Shown here: positions 23,612 through 32,572 of the stretch, in pieces
Position numbering within the stretch: position 1 is the stretch's first letter
Layout of the letters: each line of letters starts with the position of its first letter
From: Henriciella sp.
GTDB lineage: Bacteria; Pseudomonadota; Alphaproteobacteria; Caulobacterales; Hyphomonadaceae
DNA: 64,000 nt
NCBI GenBank assembly: GCA_013213785.1
Contig: JABSPZ010000005.1
Location: forward strand, 1-64,000
Reading direction: 5' to 3'
Translations under genes and position numbers: made by a program
Notes under the pieces: generated by a model
Databases searched by the model: none
Told to the model about the DNA's origin: nothing
The model's input: only the letters and a program-made list of their open reading frames with translations

Positions 23612-25288
23612 ATGGCTATTCAGACTTCCGTAAATCCAAACTTCGCGCCCAATCCTGATGTCGCATTAGACACAGGCCGGTTACACGAAAAAATCGCGCA
23701 AGCTTTGGTCGAATATGCGGAACAGCCCTTTCTGACGACGGCGCTTCCAACCGGTCACTCTGAAACTACGGACTTTAAAACCGCGATTGCGTCAGCGCAA
23801 AAGCTCGCCAAGTACCTGCGTGAAGATCTCGGCTATGACGAAGGCGATGTTGTCGCGATTCAATCGCCGAATTGCACATCTTACATTGTGTCTCTTCTCG
23901 GCGTCTTCCTCGCTGGATTGAAAGTCACCAATGTGAACCCGCTCTACACGGCGGCTGAAACGCGGCGCCAGTTAAAAGACAGCGGCGCTCGCTGCGTGAT
24001 CGGCTCAACCATCTTCTCAGAAATGATCGAAGAGGCCGTCGAAGGCACCAAGGTCGATAAGCTCATCGCGATCTCAGTCACGGACTTCTTTAAGCCCATG
24101 GCACGCGGCGCGCTAAATTTCTTGCTGCGCAAAGTGAAAAAACTCGATCGTCCGTTCCAAGGTGCGCATTCAACCTTGAACGACATCCTCGCGAACACGA
24201 CTGTGACCGAGATCGACAATTTCGAGCGCGTTTCTGCTTTAGATCCTGAGCGCGATACAATCTATCAGTATTCCGGCGGCACGACGGGTGTCTCGAAGGG
24301 CGTTCGCCTGACTGAGCAGGGGCTGATGAGCAATATCGCTCAATTCACGATAGCGAGTCCGGAGCTGCTCCTAACCCCGAAACAGACCATGTTGCTGGCG
24401 CTGCCTGTCTATCATGTCTTTGGGATGCTGGCCTCTGTGATCGCGATCACCAATGGCGGCCATCTGGTGCTCATTCCGAACCCGCGCCCGCTGACCAATA
24501 TGAAGCCAGCCTTCAAAAAGTTTAAGCCTGACATCTTCCCTGGCGTGAATACGCTGTTTGAGAAGCTGCTCGAAGAAGACTGGTTCCAAGAGTATGGCCA
24601 AAGCATCAAGATCACGATCTCTGGCGCAGCCGCTCTGCATGATCACACGGCCCAGAACTGGATGGCGGCGACGCAGTCGAACATCATCGAAGGCTATGGC
24701 ATGACCGAGGCGACAACACTGATCGCCGTTCGCGATCACTCGGTCAGCAAATCTAGCGGCTCCGCGGGACGCGCTTTCCCAGGAACGGACATTCGGATCC
24801 TGCACAATGACCTTATTACGGAGCAGCCGGGTGTCGTCGGCGAGATCCTGATTTCAGGACCACAGGTCATGAAAGGCTATCTTGGCCGCGAACAGGAAAC
24901 CTCGAATGCCTATCTCGGCGAATGGTTCCGGACCGGCGATATGGGCCGGTTTGATGAAGACGGTGAGCTCTACATTGTCGACCGCTGTAAAGACATGGTG
25001 CTGGTTGGCGGGTTCAATGTGTTCCCGAACGAGGTCGATGGTGTGCTGTCGACCTGCGCCGGCGTCACAGAGGCCGCCGCAGCGGGTATTCGCACCGAGT
25101 CTGGCTCGGAAGAGTTGCATGCTTTTGTCGTGACGTCCGATCCTGAATGCACGGCAGAATCGGTTCTCGCGCACTGCCGAAACGAGCTGACTGGCTACAA
25201 AGTTCCTCGAAAAGTACATTTTATCGAAGAATTGCCAAAAAACCCGATCGGCAAGATTCTTAGGCGCCACCTACAGGATCACGCCTAG
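23612..25288 (+). CDS. fadD: Long-chain fatty acid-CoA ligase
   Basis: 558-residue ANL adenylating enzyme converting free fatty acids to acyl-CoA through an acyl-AMP. The P-loop YSGGTTGVSKGV, the A5 motif EGYGMTEAT, A7 RTGDMGRFDEDGE, A8 hinge YIVDRCKDMVLVGG and the catalytic Lys in NPIGKILRR are all intact. Inner-membrane-associated cytosolic enzyme of beta-oxidation and exogenous fatty-acid use. ATG start; length and motif order are those of FadD, though short- or medium-chain preference is possible. Confidence 0.9.
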   Translation: MAIQTSVNPNFAPNPDVALDTGRLHEKIAQALVEYAEQPFLTTALPTGHSETTDFKTAIASAQKLAKYLREDLGYDEGDVVAIQSPNCTSYIVSLLGVFLAGLKVTNVNPLYTAAETRRQLKDSGARCVIGSTIFSEMIEEAVEGTKVDKLIAISVTDFFKPMARGALNFLLRKVKKLDRPFQGAHSTLNDILANTTVTEIDNFERVSALDPERDTIYQYSGGTTGVSKGVRLTEQGLMSNIAQFTIASPELLLTPKQTMLLALPVYHVFGMLASVIAITNGGHLVLIPNPRPLTNMKPAFKKFKPDIFPGVNTLFEKLLEEDWFQEYGQSIKITISGAAALHDHTAQNWMAATQSNIIEGYGMTEATTLIAVRDHSVSKSSGSAGRAFPGTDIRILHNDLITEQPGVVGEILISGPQVMKGYLGREQETSNAYLGEWFRTGDMGRFDEDGELYIVDRCKDMVLVGGFNVFPNEVDGVLSTCAGVTEAAAAGIRTESGSEELHAFVVTSDPECTAESVLAHCRNELTGYKVPRKVHFIEELPKNPIGKILRRHLQDHA

Positions 25289-25490
25289 GCCACAATTTCT
25301 GCCTTAAAATTGCCCCACCTAAACCTGACTTAGGACATTGCCAGTGCGCCGTAGATGGCATAGATGCCGCGCGGAAATGGTTAATGTTGCTGATTGTTAA
25401 GCGGACCACCCCCTCCCTACAGTGTAATGAATACGCCGTTTGGACGAGGTCGTCAGTTATTAACAGTCCGATGCGGGATGGGTGATAAAG

Positions 25491-27929
25491 ATGAACTTGC
25501 ACACGCGCCTTTTGGCGATTGTTCGGCATCCGAGTAGCTGGTTGGTTGCTATCTGTTTGGTGCTTGTGGTGATGCATCTGCGAAGCTCACCAACGCTTCC
25601 CAACCAATTGCGCGCGATAACGATGTACGACTTCTCGCTCGCGATGAGTTTTGTCGGCGATGATCGCAATGTCGATGTTACGACATTCTTGCCGTCCGAT
25701 GATGAGCGCCAAGACATTGTTCGTGAGAACATTATTTCAGGTCAGCTCCAATTTGATGACCAAACAGATCAGTCCGGTCGCCGCGGCATGTGGTCTGGCG
25801 ATCAGGGCCGCGAGATTCGTTATCATGCGCTGATTACATCCAAGCAGCTGGTTTATGATCTCGATCAATCGCTACAGGTCCCGCAATTCCTTCCCGAACA
25901 GTACAATCAGTATTTGATCGAGGAAGAAGGCATTCAGGTCGGCCATCCAGAGATCCGAGATCTATGGTCGACGATCCAACCGGATGATAGCCGCGAGCTC
26001 GTCCCGGTTCTGACCTCCATTTATGACTATACCTATCAGGGCATCGAGGGTGCGCCATTCAAAGGCTTCACTGACGCCCTGACGGCGCTACGCCTTGGGC
26101 GCGCGAGCTGTAACGGGAAGGGCCGCTTGTTTGTGGCGATCGCCCGCACAAACGGCATTCCAGCACGTCTCGTCGGCGGTGTGATTATGAATGAGGGGTC
26201 TAAGAAGACCTCGCACCAATGGCTTGAAGTTCTGATCGAAGGTCGCTGGGTCCCGTTCGACCCTACCAATGGCCACTTTGCGAGCCTGCCGGAAAACTAT
26301 CTACGTCTATACACCGGCGACCACGCTCTGTTCCGCCACACACGGAACATCAATTTCGACTATCGCTTCACCATCAATCCGGTCAGCCAGTCCCCTGCCC
26401 TGTTTGAGTTTGATGAGAACGAGCCAACGCTGAATCGCTTCAACGCAGCGCAACTCATGCGCCTCACCGGTCTGCCGGAAGAGATGATTGGCGTCTTCTT
26501 GCTATTCCCGCTCGCCGCCCTGGTCACGATCTTCTTGCGCAGCGTGGTTGGCTTGAAAACATTCGGGATCTTTATGCCTATGCTGATCGCGGCGGCCTGT
26601 GTGAACACAGGGCTTTGGCTAGGCCTCGCAACCTTCTCAGGAATTGTCGCATTCGCGATCTTGGCGCTCGCCTATTTCAACAGGTTCAATGTCTTGAAGA
26701 TCCCGCGCCTCGCAGCAGTGATTACGATCTGTACCGTCTTGTTTGTCGGCGTGCTGCTTTGGCTTGGCAACCGCACCAGCTTGCAGTTCGGGATCCTCGC
26801 TCTGTTCCCGGTGGTGATCATTTCCTTCCTAGCAGAGCGCATTCACAACATGCTTGATGACGAGGATTGGAAAGGACTGGCGACGGCCGGCGCCGGAACG
26901 ATCGTTACGATTATCGCCTGTTACATCGTGTTCTCATCGGTTCTGCTGAAAGGCCTATTCGCTTTGATGCCTGAGCTTCTGTTGCTCGTTCTCGGCGTCC
27001 AGCTCGCGATCGGCCAATGGTCCGGCATGCGTCTCCAAGAGTTCTTCCGGTTTCGCTCCATCTTGGACAAAGGCCCGGTGCTTGGCATGAATGCCCGTAA
27101 CCGCCTTCTGATCAACGAGTTGAACTCTAAGGAATTGCTCGACCTCGCCGCCGACAAACTGCGCACGAAAGAGATCCTACAAGCGGCGGACGTTCCTGTC
27201 GCACGCACCTACGCGGTGTGTGAGTCGTTCCGTGACTTGCCAGAGTTTATGAACACGGTTGCCGATTTCGGTTCGTTTGCGCTGAAGCCAAATCGCGGAT
27301 CTCAAGGCAATGGTATTTTGATTATCCGCGAGCGTGACGGCGATAGTTTCATTACTGCCGGCGGTCGCACCTTGAAGCCTGAACAGCTTTCCAAACATGT
27401 CGGTGAAATCCTGCACGGCGCCTATTCTCAGGGCGGTGAGGAGGACTCTGCCTATGTTGAGCCGCTCCTGAAGCAGCACTCTGAAATCAGCAAGATTGCC
27501 GATTTCGGGCTCTCCGATATTCGCGTGATCCTGCATGAAAATCGCCCTGTTTCCGCGATGCTACGTCTGCCGACAAAGAAATCCGGCGGGAAAGCGAACC
27601 TGCACCAAGGTGCGGTTGGTCTCGCCATCGATATCGAAACCGGCAAAATCACCAACGCCGCGCTGCAGGGCCAAACGATTGAAGAGCACCCTGATACGGG
27701 CGCGAAACTGATCGGCGCGAAGATCCCAAAATGGCGTGAACTTGTGGATATCTCCAAGCGCGCCTCGCAAGCGATCCCGCTTGGCTATATCGGTGTTGAT
27801 ATCTGTATCGACCAGGATCGCGGTCCTCTCATTCTGGAAGTCAATGGCCGCCCGGGCATTGAGATCCAGAACGTCCAACAAAAAGGCCTCGTAGAAGACC
27901 TAACGAATCAAGAGCTTGCCCATGCATGA
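25491..27929 (+). CDS. Transglutaminase-like / 7TM / RimK-like ATP-grasp fusion protein
   Basis: 812 residues combining three modules usually encoded separately. (1) An N-terminal signal anchor (about 16-29), then an extracytoplasmic transglutaminase-like domain with Cys207 (GRASCNGKG), His242 (TSHQWLEV) and Asp257 (PFDPTNG), an apparently intact triad, although the relatives are called 'inactive transglutaminases'. (2) About six or seven membrane segments between residues 332 and 510. (3) A cytosolic ATP-grasp ligase, residues about 525-810, with ATP-binding Lys599 (ALKPNRGSQGNG) and the metal-binding LILEVNGRPG. In gammaproteobacteria the separate proteins (alpha-L-glutamate-ligase-like, 7TM transglutaminase) occur with a retropepsin-like zinc protease, which is absent here. 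A peptide or protein amidation role across the membrane is inference. A GTG at 25482 is an alternative start. The downstream TPR gene overlaps by eight bases. Confidence 0.82.
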   Translation: MNLHTRLLAIVRHPSSWLVAICLVLVVMHLRSSPTLPNQLRAITMYDFSLAMSFVGDDRNVDVTTFLPSDDERQDIVRENIISGQLQFDDQTDQSGRRGMWSGDQGREIRYHALITSKQLVYDLDQSLQVPQFLPEQYNQYLIEEEGIQVGHPEIRDLWSTIQPDDSRELVPVLTSIYDYTYQGIEGAPFKGFTDALTALRLGRASCNGKGRLFVAIARTNGIPARLVGGVIMNEGSKKTSHQWLEVLIEGRWVPFDPTNGHFASLPENYLRLYTGDHALFRHTRNINFDYRFTINPVSQSPALFEFDENEPTLNRFNAAQLMRLTGLPEEMIGVFLLFPLAALVTIFLRSVVGLKTFGIFMPMLIAAACVNTGLWLGLATFSGIVAFAILALAYFNRFNVLKIPRLAAVITICTVLFVGVLLWLGNRTSLQFGILALFPVVIISFLAERIHNMLDDEDWKGLATAGAGTIVTIIACYIVFSSVLLKGLFALMPELLLLVLGVQLAIGQWSGMRLQEFFRFRSILDKGPVLGMNARNRLLINELNSKELLDLAADKLRTKEILQAADVPVARTYAVCESFRDLPEFMNTVADFGSFALKPNRGSQGNGILIIRERDGDSFITAGGRTLKPEQLSKHVGEILHGAYSQGGEEDSAYVEPLLKQHSEISKIADFGLSDIRVILHENRPVSAMLRLPTKKSGGKANLHQGAVGLAIDIETGKITNAALQGQTIEEHPDTGAKLIGAKIPKWRELVDISKRASQAIPLGYIGVDICIDQDRGPLILEVNGRPGIEIQNVQQKGLVEDLTNQELAHA

Positions 27930-29808
27930 GCAATCCCCCTTCTTCTCAGCCCCGGCCTTGAGCATCCTGGCGCTGGTCGTCGCGATCTTTGCGCTCGTGG
28001 CGGAGTTTGTTGTTCGCAGCGATGAAGACACGACGATTTCGCGTGCAATTTCGTCAGACGATCAGCAGGAGATTGAAGTCGTTGATACCAGCGATTTATC
28101 AGAGGATTTCCAAGCTGATCTCGTTCAGATTGTTCAAGATACATCGCTCTCGCCGCTCTCTTATGACCGGTTGCAAACGACCCCATTCTTTCGCCGTGCG
28201 AGCGATGCGGATAAGCCGAAATTTGCGGCGCATATCGGTGAACTCCTCACCTCTCGGAAGCGGTTTGAGGAAGCGATTGAAGTGCTGCGCGGATTGCAGC
28301 CGGAACAGCGGATCGAGCATGGCGCGTCTTTCTCATATGCGCTGGCTTTTCGTGGTGCCGACCGGATTGAAGCGGCAATTCAAGCCTATGCGACACACCT
28401 GGCGGCGAACCCAAACCACAATCCGGGTTACGTGAATTACGGGATCTTGCTTGCAGAAACCGGGCAGCATGAAGAAGCGGTGCGAGTGTTTGAGCGCTCA
28501 GTGGATATCACCAGCTCATCCCGTAAAGGCAAATCGCTCTCTTTGCTGGGCCAATCTCAAGTTGAGCTTGGACTGTATGAAGAGGCGATCGACGCTTTTG
28601 ATAAGTCGATCCAATTCCGCCCCGATAGCGGTCCGACCTGGCGCCGCTTTGCGACGGCCAAAGCGCGATCCGGCTTGTATCCAAGTGAAGAGATTGAAGC
28701 AGATTACCAACGCGCCCTCGCCTTGGCGCCGGACAGCGCGGTGACCCTAACCGACTGGGCCGAATTTAACTTCTCATTCGGTCGTTTCGAAACTGCATTG
28801 CCAATGTTTCGCGAGGCCAGCACCCAAGCGCAGAATGATTTTGACATCCTGTTCTCGCGCTCCGTGAACCTGATGGCATCCGAGCGTCCTCGCGCGGCCC
28901 GCCAAGTCATCCGCCGGATGGCGAATGTGGAAATGTCTTCAGAGCAGGCGCTTCTTCTAAAAGCCCTCCAAGAAGCGAGCGGTGTGATCCGTCCACCAAC
29001 CGTGGAGACTAAGGATGAAGTTTGCATCGCGCGCGGTGAAACTGAGCGTCTGATTTACACGTGTCTGTTGTTGCAACTCGAGCTGGATAATCTTGAGGCT
29101 GCCTCTGATATCGCGTCCGAGCTGCCTGAAACGTCTGTCTTTACGCAACCTGCGGCGTTCGCACTGGCGCGCTATGAATACAGACAAGGCTCGCCGGAAA
29201 TGGCTGCTGAGCGTCTTGATATCTTGCTCACAAAGAACCCACAAAGCCCGCTTTTCTGGCTCTACAAAGCACGTAGCCTCGCGGTCAGCGAGCAAAACGA
29301 TGAAGCTCTTATGGCATTCGGGAAAGCACTCGAGCTCAACCCAGAAAGTCGCAAGACAACGCTCGAAATGAGTGATCATCTCATGGTTATGGAATTCTAC
29401 GAGCAGGCGGAAGAAATCCTGATGAGCTACTTGCTCGTGAATCCGAACGATGCGCCAATCTTGCTCGCATTGGCGGGAGTTCAAGAAGCGGCGGGCGCTC
29501 CTGAAGCAGCAGAAGAAACTTTGCTTCAGCTGATGGATATGAGCGAAGAAGACGACGCGGAAACCACTCAAAAGCTGGTTGCCGTCCAGGTCAGCCTGGA
29601 TAAGTTTGCCGATGCCTTGGCAAATGCAGACAATCTGCTTGAGCAAGATCCAGCGAATATAGAAGTGCGCCGTCTTCGTGTCGAAGCGCTTACAGCGTTG
29701 GGTGAGGATGAAGAGGCTGAAGCTGAACTCGATCGGATCCGCCGTCTAGAACCGACTGAGACAACCGAGGAAGCGACGGCAACAGAATTCGCAGCCTCTG
29801 CGCCCTAA
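27922..29808 (+). CDS. Membrane-anchored TPR protein
   Basis: 628 residues. A single N-terminal membrane helix (SILALVVAIFALVAEFVV) is followed by an acidic linker and then many TPR-like helical pairs (for example NPGYVNYGILLAETGQHEEA and SLLGQSQVELGLYEEAIDAF, and NPESRKTTLEMSDHLMVMEF). Predicted periplasmic scaffold. Its ATG lies inside the last codons of the ATP-grasp fusion gene (eight-base overlap), so the two are translationally coupled and very likely work together, perhaps with the TPR array presenting the substrate. Acidic low-complexity tail (EDEEAEAEL, TEEATATEFA). No enzymatic motif. Confidence 0.8.
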   Translation: MHEQSPFFSAPALSILALVVAIFALVAEFVVRSDEDTTISRAISSDDQQEIEVVDTSDLSEDFQADLVQIVQDTSLSPLSYDRLQTTPFFRRASDADKPKFAAHIGELLTSRKRFEEAIEVLRGLQPEQRIEHGASFSYALAFRGADRIEAAIQAYATHLAANPNHNPGYVNYGILLAETGQHEEAVRVFERSVDITSSSRKGKSLSLLGQSQVELGLYEEAIDAFDKSIQFRPDSGPTWRRFATAKARSGLYPSEEIEADYQRALALAPDSAVTLTDWAEFNFSFGRFETALPMFREASTQAQNDFDILFSRSVNLMASERPRAARQVIRRMANVEMSSEQALLLKALQEASGVIRPPTVETKDEVCIARGETERLIYTCLLLQLELDNLEAASDIASELPETSVFTQPAAFALARYEYRQGSPEMAAERLDILLTKNPQSPLFWLYKARSLAVSEQNDEALMAFGKALELNPESRKTTLEMSDHLMVMEFYEQAEEILMSYLLVNPNDAPILLALAGVQEAAGAPEAAEETLLQLMDMSEEDDAETTQKLVAVQVSLDKFADALANADNLLEQDPANIEVRRLRVEALTALGEDEEAEAELDRIRRLEPTETTEEATATEFAASAP

Positions 29809-29814
29809 CAGATT

Positions 29815-29840
29815 TGCGGAGCGATGAAGGTTGCTCCGCA
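29815..29840. terminator. Bidirectional hairpin between TPR and DUF465 genes
   Basis: TGCGGAGC and GCTCCGCA pair perfectly (eight pairs, ten-base loop) in the 39-base convergent gap. T-rich bases follow on each side (TTCGGGTTT on plus). Plausibly ends both transcripts. Confidence 0.6.
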
Positions 29841-29847
29841 TTCGGGT

Positions 29848-30108
29848 TTAGCGGGTTAAACGCGTGAAGCTTCCTGGCTGCAGCATGGAATAGAGCTGAT
29901 CTTTCAGCATCATCCGTTCTCGGCGGAGTGCGAATTCGGTCATATCTGCGACCGGTTCAATGCGTTCTTCCATCCGGTGAATGGTGCGATTGATCTCATG
30001 ATACCGATCGGCCAGTTTCGCGAAATGTGGACTGGTGCGGCGCATTTCCTGAATTCGCGTTTTATCGTTCGGGAAATCGTCAGCAAGTTCGTGTGGGGTA
30101 TGGCTCAT
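29848..30108 (-). CDS. YdcH/DUF465 family protein
   Basis: 86-residue all-helical protein. The RTSPHFAKLADRYHEINRTIHRME segment and the basic ALRRERMMLKDQLYSML tail are the DUF465 pattern (Leu-x-x-x-H-x-x-Leu-D ... Lys-x-x-Lys-Leu-x-Leu-K-D-x-I). Function unknown in all members. Its ribosome-binding site lies within a hairpin (see 30115-30148), and ftsK is upstream, about 86 bases away. Confidence 0.85.
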   Translation of the reverse strand: MSHTPHELADDFPNDKTRIQEMRRTSPHFAKLADRYHEINRTIHRMEERIEPVADMTEFALRRERMMLKDQLYSMLQPGSFTRLTR

Positions 30109-30114
30109 AACAAA

Positions 30115-30148
30115 CGGCTCCTCTGGTGGTTTGAGACCAGAGGAGCCG
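30115..30148 (-). promoter_or_regulatory. Hairpin sequestering the DUF465 ribosome-binding site
   Basis: A perfect 13-pair inverted repeat (CGGCTCCTCTGGT / ACCAGAGGAGCCG, extendable by one A-T pair) with an 8-base loop lies 45 bases past the ftsK stop. Read on the minus strand, the 3' arm contains GAGGAG, nine bases before the DUF465 ATG, then TTTGTT. It could terminate ftsK transcripts, mask translation of DUF465, or both. Confidence 0.7.
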
Positions 30149-30193
30149 TAATTTTGTCAGCCGTCACTTAGGACTATTGCTTATACCGCTGGG

Positions 30194-32572
30194 TTATTCG
30201 GGGTCAGTTGGCTTCAATATCGTCCGCTTCCCAGCATGGTTTGGCGCGGAGATCACGCCTGCGTCTTCCAAGCGCTCGATCAAGGTGGCGGCTTTGTTGT
30301 AGCCGACTTTGAGACGGCGCTGCAGATAGCTGGTTGAGGCGCGCTTATCGCCGAGAACAATCGCCATGGCCTGTGCGTAGAGGTCTTCGTCCTTGTCGCC
30401 GGTCGACGTGCCGAGCATCGCGTCCATGATGACGCTGCCAGTGCCTTCATCAGGCTCCTCGAGGACTTCTGGATTATAGTCCGGCTCCCCGCCATTTTCA
30501 CGCAACCAGTCGACGACCGCTTGCACTTCGTCATCCGATACGAACGGGCCGTGACAGCGTTGAGACTTAATACCTGCGGCTTGATAGAGCAGGTCGCCCA
30601 TGCCGAGGAGCTGCTCCGCGCCTTGCTCGCCCAAAATGGTGCGAGAGTCGATTTTTGTCGTCACCATGTAAGAGATACGGGTCGGGAAGTTGGCCTTAAT
30701 CGTCCCGGTAATCACGTCCACGGACGGACGCTGTGTTGCGGTGATCAGGTGAATGCCAGCCGCCCGCGCCATTTGTGCGAGGCGTTGGACGCAGCCTTCA
30801 ATCTCTTTGCCGGCCACCATCATCAGGTCGGCCATCTCATCGATAACGATGACGAGATTTGGAACATGATCCAGAGGTAGGATCTCGGTTTCATATTGTG
30901 GCTTGCCGCGATCATCGAAACCGGTCTGGACCTTGCGGGTCATGTGCTCACCACGCTTGCGGAACTCGGCCGCTTTCTTGTTGAAGCCAGATAGGTTCCG
31001 AACACCGGCTTTCGACATCAACTCATAGCGCATTTCCATCTCGCGCACCGCCCATTGCAGCGCCAGAACCGCTTTTTTCGGATCTGTCACCACCGGCGAT
31101 AAGAGGTGCGGAATGCCCTCATAAATGCTGAGTTCCAGCATTTTCGGGTCGATGAAGATGAAGCGGCATTCTTCAGGCGGGAGCTTGAAGATTAGCGACA
31201 GGATCATCGCGTTAACGCCGACCGATTTACCAGAGCCGGTTGTCCCCGCAATGAGCAAGTGAGGCATCTTTGCCAGCTCAACGACGGTTGGCGCGCCGCC
31301 AATATCCTCGCCGAGCGCCATCGGGAGCGCTGCTTTGGTCTTGGTATAGGCCTCATTGTCGAGGAGCGAGCGGAGATAAACCGTCTGGCGCTCTTCGTTT
31401 GGTAGCTCGATACCAATTGCGTTTTTTCCTGGAACAACGGCAATCCGGCAGGAAACTGCGCTCATTGAACGGGCGACATCGTCTGCGAGAGAGATGACGC
31501 GGGCGGATTTCACACCAGCTGCAGGCTCGAGTTCAAATAGGGTGACCACCGGGCCTGGGCGAACTTCGCGGATACGGCCACGGACCCCAAACTCGCGAAG
31601 GACTTCAGCCAAGCGGTTGGCTTTCTGAAGCAGAGCGTCTTCGTCAATCTCGTTGCGCTGTACTGGCGGCAATTGCAGCAGATCCATCGGTGGAACTTTT
31701 GCGCCGCGCGCCTTTCGGCTGCGCTTTACCTGGGTCTTCGGCACCGTCGCAGACCGCGGCGCCATGACAGTCAGGGATTTCGGAGCTTCAGGCCCTGCGG
31801 CAGAGGCAACAGAAGGGCTCTCCACAGTGTCTTCGACGTCGGCATAGTCGGCAGCCTGGAGGGCTGTCTCAGACTCATTTGAACGGCGAATTTGTAGTCC
31901 GTCTGGTGCATCGACTGCGGCTGCGTGCGCGCGCCGGCGCTTGAACCGGCTGAGAAGTCCGCCTGCTTGACGCGCCGCGCGGGCGCTCGATTGGCTTGCA
32001 GCGGCCTGCAAGAGGCGCGCATCGCCGCGTCGGAAGCCGAGCGCTGCAAATGCGCAGGTCAAGGCGAGGCCGCCCGCCAGTAGGCCTGCTAGCAATTCTG
32101 GCATAGGAAGAAGCAATGCCTTGAACGGCATAACCGAGAGATCGTGGAGCCCGTCACCAATCATGCCGCCAAGGCCAGCCCGAAGCGGCCATGAGGTTGG
32201 AACCGGCCAAGAGGCGAAACAGGCTGCGGAAAGCGGGACAAAAGCCATTCCGAGCATCCATCGACGGACTTTCGGGGCGCCGATTAAAACCGCGCGCATG
32301 GCTCCGCCAATCATCAAAGCAAGACCTGCGACCCAAGCAGACCAGCCAAGCAATTGCCGCATCAGATCAGCGAACACGGCGCCACCTGAGCCAAACAGGT
32401 TGGTTACGCTGCGATTGGTGGCGGCGTTCCAGCTTGGATCCAATGGGTCATAAGTTCCCACACTGCCGCAAATAAACACGCCCAAAGCAAAAGCACCGGT
32501 TCCAGTTATGATGCGCCAAACAGGATCTGAGGCTTCTCGGATCTGCGCGCTGTCTGCGATTGTATTCGCCAT
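30194..32572 (-). CDS. ftsK: DNA translocase FtsK
   Basis: 792-residue septal DNA pump that segregates chromosome termini and activates XerCD recombination. An N-terminal membrane domain with about four helices (for example ITGTGAFALGVFICGSV) anchors it at the divisome; a Ser/Arg/Pro-rich linker (about 200-290) follows. The motor contains Walker A AGTTGSGKSVGVN and Walker B LVIVIDEMADLMMV, and the C-terminal winged-helix gamma domain (SYLQRRLKVGYNKAATLIERLE) reads KOPS/dif-proximal sequence. Shorter linker than E. coli FtsK, typical for alphaproteobacteria. Confidence 0.96.
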   Translation of the reverse strand: MANTIADSAQIREASDPVWRIITGTGAFALGVFICGSVGTYDPLDPSWNAATNRSVTNLFGSGGAVFADLMRQLLGWSAWVAGLALMIGGAMRAVLIGAPKVRRWMLGMAFVPLSAACFASWPVPTSWPLRAGLGGMIGDGLHDLSVMPFKALLLPMPELLAGLLAGGLALTCAFAALGFRRGDARLLQAAASQSSARAARQAGGLLSRFKRRRAHAAAVDAPDGLQIRRSNESETALQAADYADVEDTVESPSVASAAGPEAPKSLTVMAPRSATVPKTQVKRSRKARGAKVPPMDLLQLPPVQRNEIDEDALLQKANRLAEVLREFGVRGRIREVRPGPVVTLFELEPAAGVKSARVISLADDVARSMSAVSCRIAVVPGKNAIGIELPNEERQTVYLRSLLDNEAYTKTKAALPMALGEDIGGAPTVVELAKMPHLLIAGTTGSGKSVGVNAMILSLIFKLPPEECRFIFIDPKMLELSIYEGIPHLLSPVVTDPKKAVLALQWAVREMEMRYELMSKAGVRNLSGFNKKAAEFRKRGEHMTRKVQTGFDDRGKPQYETEILPLDHVPNLVIVIDEMADLMMVAGKEIEGCVQRLAQMARAAGIHLITATQRPSVDVITGTIKANFPTRISYMVTTKIDSRTILGEQGAEQLLGMGDLLYQAAGIKSQRCHGPFVSDDEVQAVVDWLRENGGEPDYNPEVLEEPDEGTGSVIMDAMLGTSTGDKDEDLYAQAMAIVLGDKRASTSYLQRRLKVGYNKAATLIERLEDAGVISAPNHAGKRTILKPTDPE

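Follow-up and report, generated by a model that had tools for sequence, protein, structure and literature searches.

A fused transglutaminase, 7TM and ATP-grasp protein of Henriciella as the predicted core of a sister form of the Rlo system

The window analysed here, a stretch of 64,000 nucleotides from Henriciella sp. (contig JABSPZ010000005.1), carries at positions 25,491 to 27,929 a gene whose product joins a transglutaminase-like (TG) domain, a seven-transmembrane (7TM) domain and an ATP-grasp ligase. Comparison with related loci showed at the sequence level that the gene belongs to a distinct, conserved system, a sister form of Rlo with the fused protein as its predicted inner-membrane core. 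Judged by its domains, the fused form is a variant of the Rlo-type amidoligase systems and an overlooked family; no description of it was found among the literature matches listed, a coverage outside which lies the amidoligase study cited for this group, Iyer et al. 2009. We put at roughly 45% the probability that the fused protein builds a glutamate-type chain or tag in the cytosol, moves it across the inner membrane and processes it outside, the product being exported in many lineages and kept and turned over in the Henriciella group.

The fused protein and its domains

The gene is a single uninterrupted open reading frame (ORF) with an ATG at 25491 and a stop at 27927-27929. Its parts are the following.

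25491..27929, + strand: fused gene (transmembrane helix, TG domain, 7TM domain, ATP-grasp ligase), 812 aa, with the same fusion in 32 other loci
25530..25586, + strand: N-terminal transmembrane helix, residues 14-32 (AlphaFold helix H14-32, hydropathy, two K/R and no D/E preceding)
25617..26393, + strand: predicted extracytoplasmic module, residues 43-301, a beta domain and a transglutaminase/papain-like domain (PF01841, 3isr_A)
26109..26111, + strand: codon of catalytic-type Cys207, C in 32/33 distinct fused, 5/5 unfused active-type and 0/57 canonical RloB-type proteins
26214..26216, + strand: codon of His242, H in 33/33 distinct fused and 4/57 distinct canonical RloB-type proteins
26259..26261, + strand: codon of Asp257, D in 23, G in 9 and C in 1 of 33 distinct fused proteins
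26436..27062, + strand: 7TM_transglut domain, residues 316-524 (PF14402)
27096..27908, + strand: RimK/LysX-like ATP-grasp ligase domain, residues 536-806 (PF14397, ArgX/RimK superposition)

Three Pfam domains lie above cut-off on this one chain, which bears out the three modules read in it by the initial annotation. Transglut_core (PF01841) covers residues 176-258 with 61.1 bits against a cut-off of 23 (E 1.4e-16), 7TM_transglut (PF14402) has 142.6 bits against 25 (E 1.9e-41) and ATPgrasp_ST (PF14397) reaches 221.7 bits (E 1.4e-65); PF08443 also matches, with 37.5 bits against 21. The "inactive transglutaminase" model PF14400 is weak on the protein and below its cut-off (residues 52-105, E 0.012). 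The NCBIfam model of RloB (NF052267), whose profile covers residues 200-525, scores 106 bits against a cut-off of 900.

An AlphaFold model of the fused protein (28 rows) has a mean predicted local distance difference test score (pLDDT) of 81.4 and a predicted template modelling score of 0.61. A structure search of the two soluble parts, proposed in the initial annotation, led from the TG region to 3isr_A and from the C-terminal domain to ArgX and RimK. Residues 43-301 of the model superpose on 3isr_A over 251 residues with Z 24.3 and a root-mean-square deviation of 2.9, and the ATP-grasp domain superposes on ArgX (3vpb_A) with Z 18.1 and on RimK (5zct_A) with Z 16.8. Of the 19 ligase-site positions tested, 18 are identical in 27/27 rows, and the remaining one is S in 24 rows and A in 3.

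The 7TM part modelled alone (pLDDT 77) found no fold match under E 0.001 in the PDB and Z values of at most 6.7, a lack of match that proves nothing on novelty. A G-I-x-x-P stretch in it looks similar to one in PgsC, but no relationship was demonstrated. Alignment of the two by hhalign gave a probability of 0.2%, and with 128 sequences 1.4% for all of PgsC, 6.6% for its first repeat and 0.1% for its second; hmmsearch with 7TM and PgsC over 1549 ORFs reached a whole-sequence E of 0.8 at best in either direction, with many 7TM proteins among the weak hits. Among the Pfam matches of 27 members, taken up to E 10, PF14102 (PgsC/CapC) did not appear.

The cysteine site and the spread of the fused form

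The residues of the extracytoplasmic site separate the fused proteins from their canonical relatives. The Cys207 column of a first alignment had C in 10/10 fused proteins (one truncated at a contig end) against a gap in 30/30 split RloB-type proteins of the window's family, and His242 was H in 10/10 versus 3/30. The wider count took distinct ORFs of at least 480 aa that match the 7TM profile in the fetched loci (105 of 128 hits, the 23 shorter ones being left out), and its 65 split rows, which contained repeats from overlapping loci, were collapsed by their last 150 residues to 57 distinct canonical proteins. The triad reads CHD in 23 of the 33 distinct fused proteins, CHG in 9 and PHC in one, the Opitutales member L127, which has lost the Cys; two further fused ORFs, L129 and L130, both cut by contig ends, read CHG. 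Five unfused active-type proteins, all of family f39, read CHD (5/5). A profile of the TG region from 22 fused proteins had 3ISR as its best structure (E 1.8e-6; the other six listed sequences had E of at least 0.2), and in this alignment the Cys207, His242 and Asp257 columns coincide with the C, H and D of 3ISR.

The initial annotation had placed the three residues in the right motif contexts and had set them against inactive relatives. Both points hold: the residues are there, their columns are those of 3ISR, and the alignment across relatives that it suggested gives Cys and His together in 32/33 fused proteins, the canonical RloB-type having Cys in none and His in few. A strictly kept triad, which it had implied, did not hold, as Asp257 is variable and the conserved unit is thus the Cys-His pair. 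The fused family, as its alignments read, keeps this pair, and the third residue is relaxed.

We consider it improbable that the system is an envelope-stress regulator whose TG domain, despite its triad, is a pseudoenzyme or acts as a sensor. Gly at the third position in nine proteins and the one fused member without Cys would suit such a role, as would the extracytoplasmic function (ECF) sigma factor and the weakly matching anti-sigma-like gene upstream of the fusion in genome G374. Yet Cys and His are kept in nearly all fused and in every unfused active-type protein, and Cys is missing from 57/57 canonical RloB-type proteins, a pattern that speaks for the nucleophile being under selection.

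The fusion is a recurrent architecture and not the singleton that the initial annotation had implied, and the 33 distinct full-length loci rule out an assembly or frame error. They comprise nine of the window's genus, with the eight genomes besides the window's at 82-97% identity, and, at lower identity, G206, G374, G1002 and G1084 (other Alphaproteobacteria) and the 20 loci L109-L128. A comparison of fused and split forms in the window's family, as the initial annotation had advised, found PF14402 in 52 of 105 genomes: nine with the full fusion, 42 with split genes only and one mixed bin, G082 (contamination 6%), in which a split locus is accompanied by a fused-type fragment at a contig end. 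That fragment (L040, contig C32), L129 and L130 were not counted as full fusions, since their contigs end inside the gene. Within the genus 28/29 genomes have PF14402, one match each, of which nine are fused and 19 split. In even samples the fusion is rare at the E-value limits used, with 10/398 genomes of the order, 3/385 of the class and 1/398 of the phylum, the last being the window's own genome.

A survey of named records, which used two peptide patterns only and gave 31 loci, is not a census. Records of the same gene (L102-L108) are named Henriciella, Hyphomonas or Hyphomonadaceae. Other fusions belong to Kangiella, Aliikangiella, Bermanella, Cycloclasticus, Hahella, Saccharospirillaceae, Thiodiazotropha, Pseudomaricurvus and Marinifaba, to unplaced Gammaproteobacteria or Pseudomonadales and to Opitutales (a Verrucomicrobiota bin), many of these records being bins. 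Rejected as fusions were G005 and the Syntrophus-group loci L131 and L132, all of them split in the order rloA-rloB-rloC with a stop or frame change between the parts.

In a tree of the ligase domain with 61 rows, the fused proteins (26 rows, support 100/99), the unfused active-type proteins (5 rows, 100/98) and canonical RloC (30 rows, 100/100) form separate groups; L198, L208, L127 and L132, which are long or odd, and 17 near-copies were left out. A larger quick tree of 82 rows agrees except for two long rows, L198 and L208 (G555 and G512), which join next to the fused group with a branch length of 2.26; canonical RloC would need two changes with this placement, and their position is unsure. 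In the same tree the Henriciella rows group with G206 and G374 of the same order, and this set in turn with the Kangiella rows (L109-L112), a placement that would agree either with deep loss or with a single ancient transfer from one class to another.

Partner genes and RloA-like retropepsins

The initial annotation did not include the partners of the fused gene, namely a tetratricopeptide repeat (TPR) protein and a barrel-like protein, nor the replacement of the canonical rlo operon in the lineage and the unfused active-type relatives. In the window the fused gene is preceded by a FadD-like gene and followed by the TPR gene.

27922..29808, + strand: 628-aa TPR protein, hydrophobic segment near its N-terminus, ATG at 27922, 8-nt overlap with the fusion stop (ATGCATGA)

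The TPR gene comes next in 32/33 distinct fused loci, the exception being L116, whose contig stops 189 bases past the fusion; in L118 the TPR ORF has just 269 aa. In 18/33 loci it is followed by a gene for a protein of 372-407 aa with a signal-like start (by eye) that weakly matches models of outer-membrane beta-barrels. A profile of this protein was built from 14 of the 18; those in G206, G374, G1002 and G1084 did not enter it, nor did those of the f39 loci. The unfused active-type loci show the order TG7TM-ATPgrasp-TPR in 5/5 and the barrel-like gene in 4/5, the contig of the fifth (L213) ending inside the TPR gene. Unlike these, 14 canonical Rlo loci tested with the TPR and barrel profiles had zero ORF matches.

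A third, minimal variant was seen in the alphaproteobacterial genomes G512 (L230:3963-6958) and G555 (L229:4155-6922), where a barrel-like gene (profile E about 1e-4), a 7TM_transglut gene without TG and an ATP-grasp gene stand together, with no TPR gene or rloA in the 13 kb read at these loci. Upstream of the fusion, an anti-sigma-like gene lies directly 5' in G374 (L216:12080-13346) and G206 (L215:176-961); its zf-HC2 match is above cut-off in G206 and below it in G374, where the ECF-type sigma factor gene precedes it. A consensus scan of positions 25200-30250 of the window, + strand, found no promoter-like site. At 30114-30149, between the convergent TPR and FtsK-like genes, the consensus scan shows a stem of 14 pairs whose tails are T-rich on both strands and which resembles a two-way terminator.

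The RloA protein of Pseudomonas aeruginosa cleaves poly-glutamate in vitro, and an rloA1-3 mutant has a growth defect in hypo-osmotic medium that is relieved when rloB or rloC is deleted (PMC12239564), so that RloB and RloC would make something that RloA must remove. No rloA stands at the fusion locus of the window. The single PF05618 protein of this genome is encoded on another contig (C11) and has 228 aa, a hydrophobic start and the motif AKLDSGAKTTS. Orthologues of this divergent RloA, recognised by score and alignment and having the same extra insert, the DSGA motif and a signal-like start (by eye), occur in 8/9 fusion genomes of the genus; none was found in G024, which is 84% complete. 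By score the divergent form is in none of the other 96 genomes of the family, save a similar-score hit in G013 (55.9 bits) that lies inside that genome's own frame-broken rlo locus. As the eight genomes look like one clade, fusion and divergent RloA make one association and not eight.

Outside the window's family, 10/21 fusion genomes (a count that leaves out the genome of L124) have no PF05618 protein. The remaining 11 have proteins of RimB or RimB-RimK size without a signal-like start or, in two genomes (G418 and G422), a canonical rlo operon besides, and signal-like PF05618 starts outside the family are confined to these two operons. In the window's family rloA lies near the split locus on the same contig in 42/43 split loci (from coordinates, by eye), the contigs of G066 being broken. 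A strict rule, by which each fusion would come with either a barrel or RloA, was rejected, as Kangiella G409-G412 have neither, just a RimB-type protein of 140 aa whose start is not signal-like.

It could be that the TG domain, as a cysteine protease, has taken the place of RloA and trims the same poly-glutamate, RloA being unnecessary in most fusion lineages. This partly overlaps the reading given at the outset. The pairing of a Cys-less TG domain with a nearby rloA in canonical loci speaks for it, as do the ten fusion genomes without PF05618, the mostly RimB-type sizes in the other 11 and the title of 3ISR, a putative cysteine protease. We nevertheless regard such a replacement as unlikely, given that the window's genus has the active-type TG domain plus the divergent RloA-like protein and that G418 and G422 carry both systems.

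Three further observations concern RloA and its loci. Genome G016 has a tandem pair of divergent RloA-like genes (L221:2375-3852), and G018 and G022 have two copies each on different contigs. In the canonical rloABC locus of G013 (L047:7357-9909) the matches to rloB and rloC contain stops and the rloA frame is short; the locus may be decaying. In G084 (L042:8781-10495) and G082 (L043:6722-8427), split RloB consists of the 7TM part only (249-250 aa), beside rloA and the ATP-grasp gene.

Proposed function and known counterparts

RimK/LysX-type ATP-grasp enzymes make amide bonds with glutamate-like substrates, Cys enzymes of the TG fold cleave amides or transfer them, and pairs of TPR and barrel proteins serve polymer export. 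In the reading that we prefer, the cytosolic ATP-grasp domain would form amide bonds one after another, most likely to build a chain of alpha-linked glutamate or to glutamylate an acceptor, and the 7TM part would carry the product over the inner membrane. The periplasmic Cys-His enzyme would then form a thioester with the product, which it would either trim or hand on to an acceptor amine. The TPR protein (presumably periplasmic) would serve as a scaffold, and the product would leave through the barrel in the outer membrane. In the Henriciella group, in which the barrel was not found, the product would stay periplasmic and be turned over by the divergent retropepsin.

Several observations weigh against this proposal. 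The fused protein scores 269 bits on TIGR02291, with a cut-off of 314.2, and is also under the cut-off of the RloB model, so that neither name fits by its own rule. The nine proteins with Gly for Asp257 and the one without Cys imply that TG catalysis may be dispensable in places, and with PF05618 missing in ten of the 21 genomes the poly-glutamate idea taken from RloA transfers less well. No known transporter fold was among the structure matches to the 7TM part. The anatomy fits the proposal of the initial annotation that a cysteine enzyme and a ligase are joined across the membrane, and the TG and ATP-grasp domains would lie on opposite sides of the inner membrane; this topology is the less firm part, as the AlphaFold helices do not fix the number of membrane crossings. 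The barrel call is weak: one of the six members scanned passes a Pfam cut-off (L127, PF11854), the others are below cut-off or empty, and the barrel-like protein of G512 had no Pfam family match. Genome-wide, the barrel-like gene was not found (A4 profile, E up to 0.01) in the nine fusion genomes of the genus and likewise in Kangiella G409-G412 and in G416 and G418 (L116 and L118), most of these 15 genomes being drafts or bins and the fusion contigs of G416 and G418 ending early. Outer-membrane export is thus unsupported for the window's lineage. The fused family is known from genes and models, from which we infer its chemistry.

These 15 genomes would agree with a post-translational modification of envelope proteins in place of a free polymer, in which the ligase would extend or prime a glutamyl tag, the Cys enzyme would ligate or remove it on a protein, lipid or peptidoglycan, and the TPR protein would present the acceptor. 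The TG fold is common to transferases and proteases, which suits this scheme, and RimK adds glutamates to a protein (PMC12239564). Left unexplained by tagging are the barrel-like gene in 18/33 fused and 4/5 unfused active-type loci and the barrel-7TM-ATPgrasp variant, and we consider it somewhat unlikely, though a serious contender.

Export of the product, as in our proposal, would have counterparts among known systems. Synthase-dependent exopolysaccharide secretion (alginate with AlgK, PgaA, Pel) combines synthesis at the inner membrane with a periplasmic modifying enzyme, a TPR scaffold and an outer-membrane barrel. The fused system would follow the same logic, a likeness by analogy for which no homology was shown, and its TPR gene is encoded with the predicted synthase in 32/33 loci. 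It differs in having an amide ligase instead of a glycosyltransferase, and the search of the window's genome for a barrel-like gene found none. PgsBCA/CapBCA synthesises poly-gamma-glutamate with a membrane-coupled ligase of different fold, so that the proposed product type and the coupling are alike and the ligase fold is not. With RimK, LysX and ArgX the C-terminal domain shares fold and site residues, although the fused ligase is tied to a membrane domain and a Cys enzyme. The TG-like putative cysteine protease 3ISR of Cytophaga hutchinsonii shares the whole extracytoplasmic module with the C/H/D columns, but its solved chain (286-293 residues) is without membrane or ligase part. The closest system is RloB/RloC of P. 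aeruginosa (rloABC; PMC12239564), which has in common the 7TM_transglut domain, a preceding TG-like module and an ATP-grasp protein of the RimK-like group; in contrast, the TG module of RloB is called inactive, the two are separate proteins, and rloA is in the operon.

Two other gene groups were noted beside these systems. Family f39, which also has the unfused active-type system, encodes 1079-1083-aa proteins with two CapC/PgsC domains each (L246:8486-11725, L247:5686-8937, L248:748-3999 and L249:7485-10736). The gene after each of them has 818-827 aa, without a Pfam match in L246, where a CHASE2-domain protein also lies ahead of the two-domain one. In genus g4, L048:3849-7072 (G046) and the similar L049:9878-13061 (G043) combine a circularly permuted ATP-grasp protein (PF14403) with an active-type stand-alone transglutaminase; this is a different amidoligase cluster, about 1 kb from a canonical rlo operon (Pfam checked in L048 only).

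It is possible, and we propose it tentatively, that the fused system is a Gram-negative trans-envelope amino-acid-polymer machine, the amide-polymer counterpart of synthase-dependent exopolysaccharide secretion, and that canonical Rlo is a derived or sister branch whose TG domain died and was replaced by a retropepsin. If so, one protein would polymerise inside, conduct the product and process it outside, with a TPR scaffold and an outer-membrane exit. The genetics of RloB and RloC are strong, with effects on cell shape, osmotic and antibiotic tolerance and biofilm (PMC12239564), and the TG part is filed as dead. In the fused family this core comes with a TG active site of the living type, and its TPR and barrel-like partners are of kinds that usually serve polymer handling. 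The partner genes make the larger reading, a poly-amino-acid secretion machine, testable, and the question of what RloB and RloC make may likewise be put to a test, as a polymer or tag that would need both Cys207 and the ligase.

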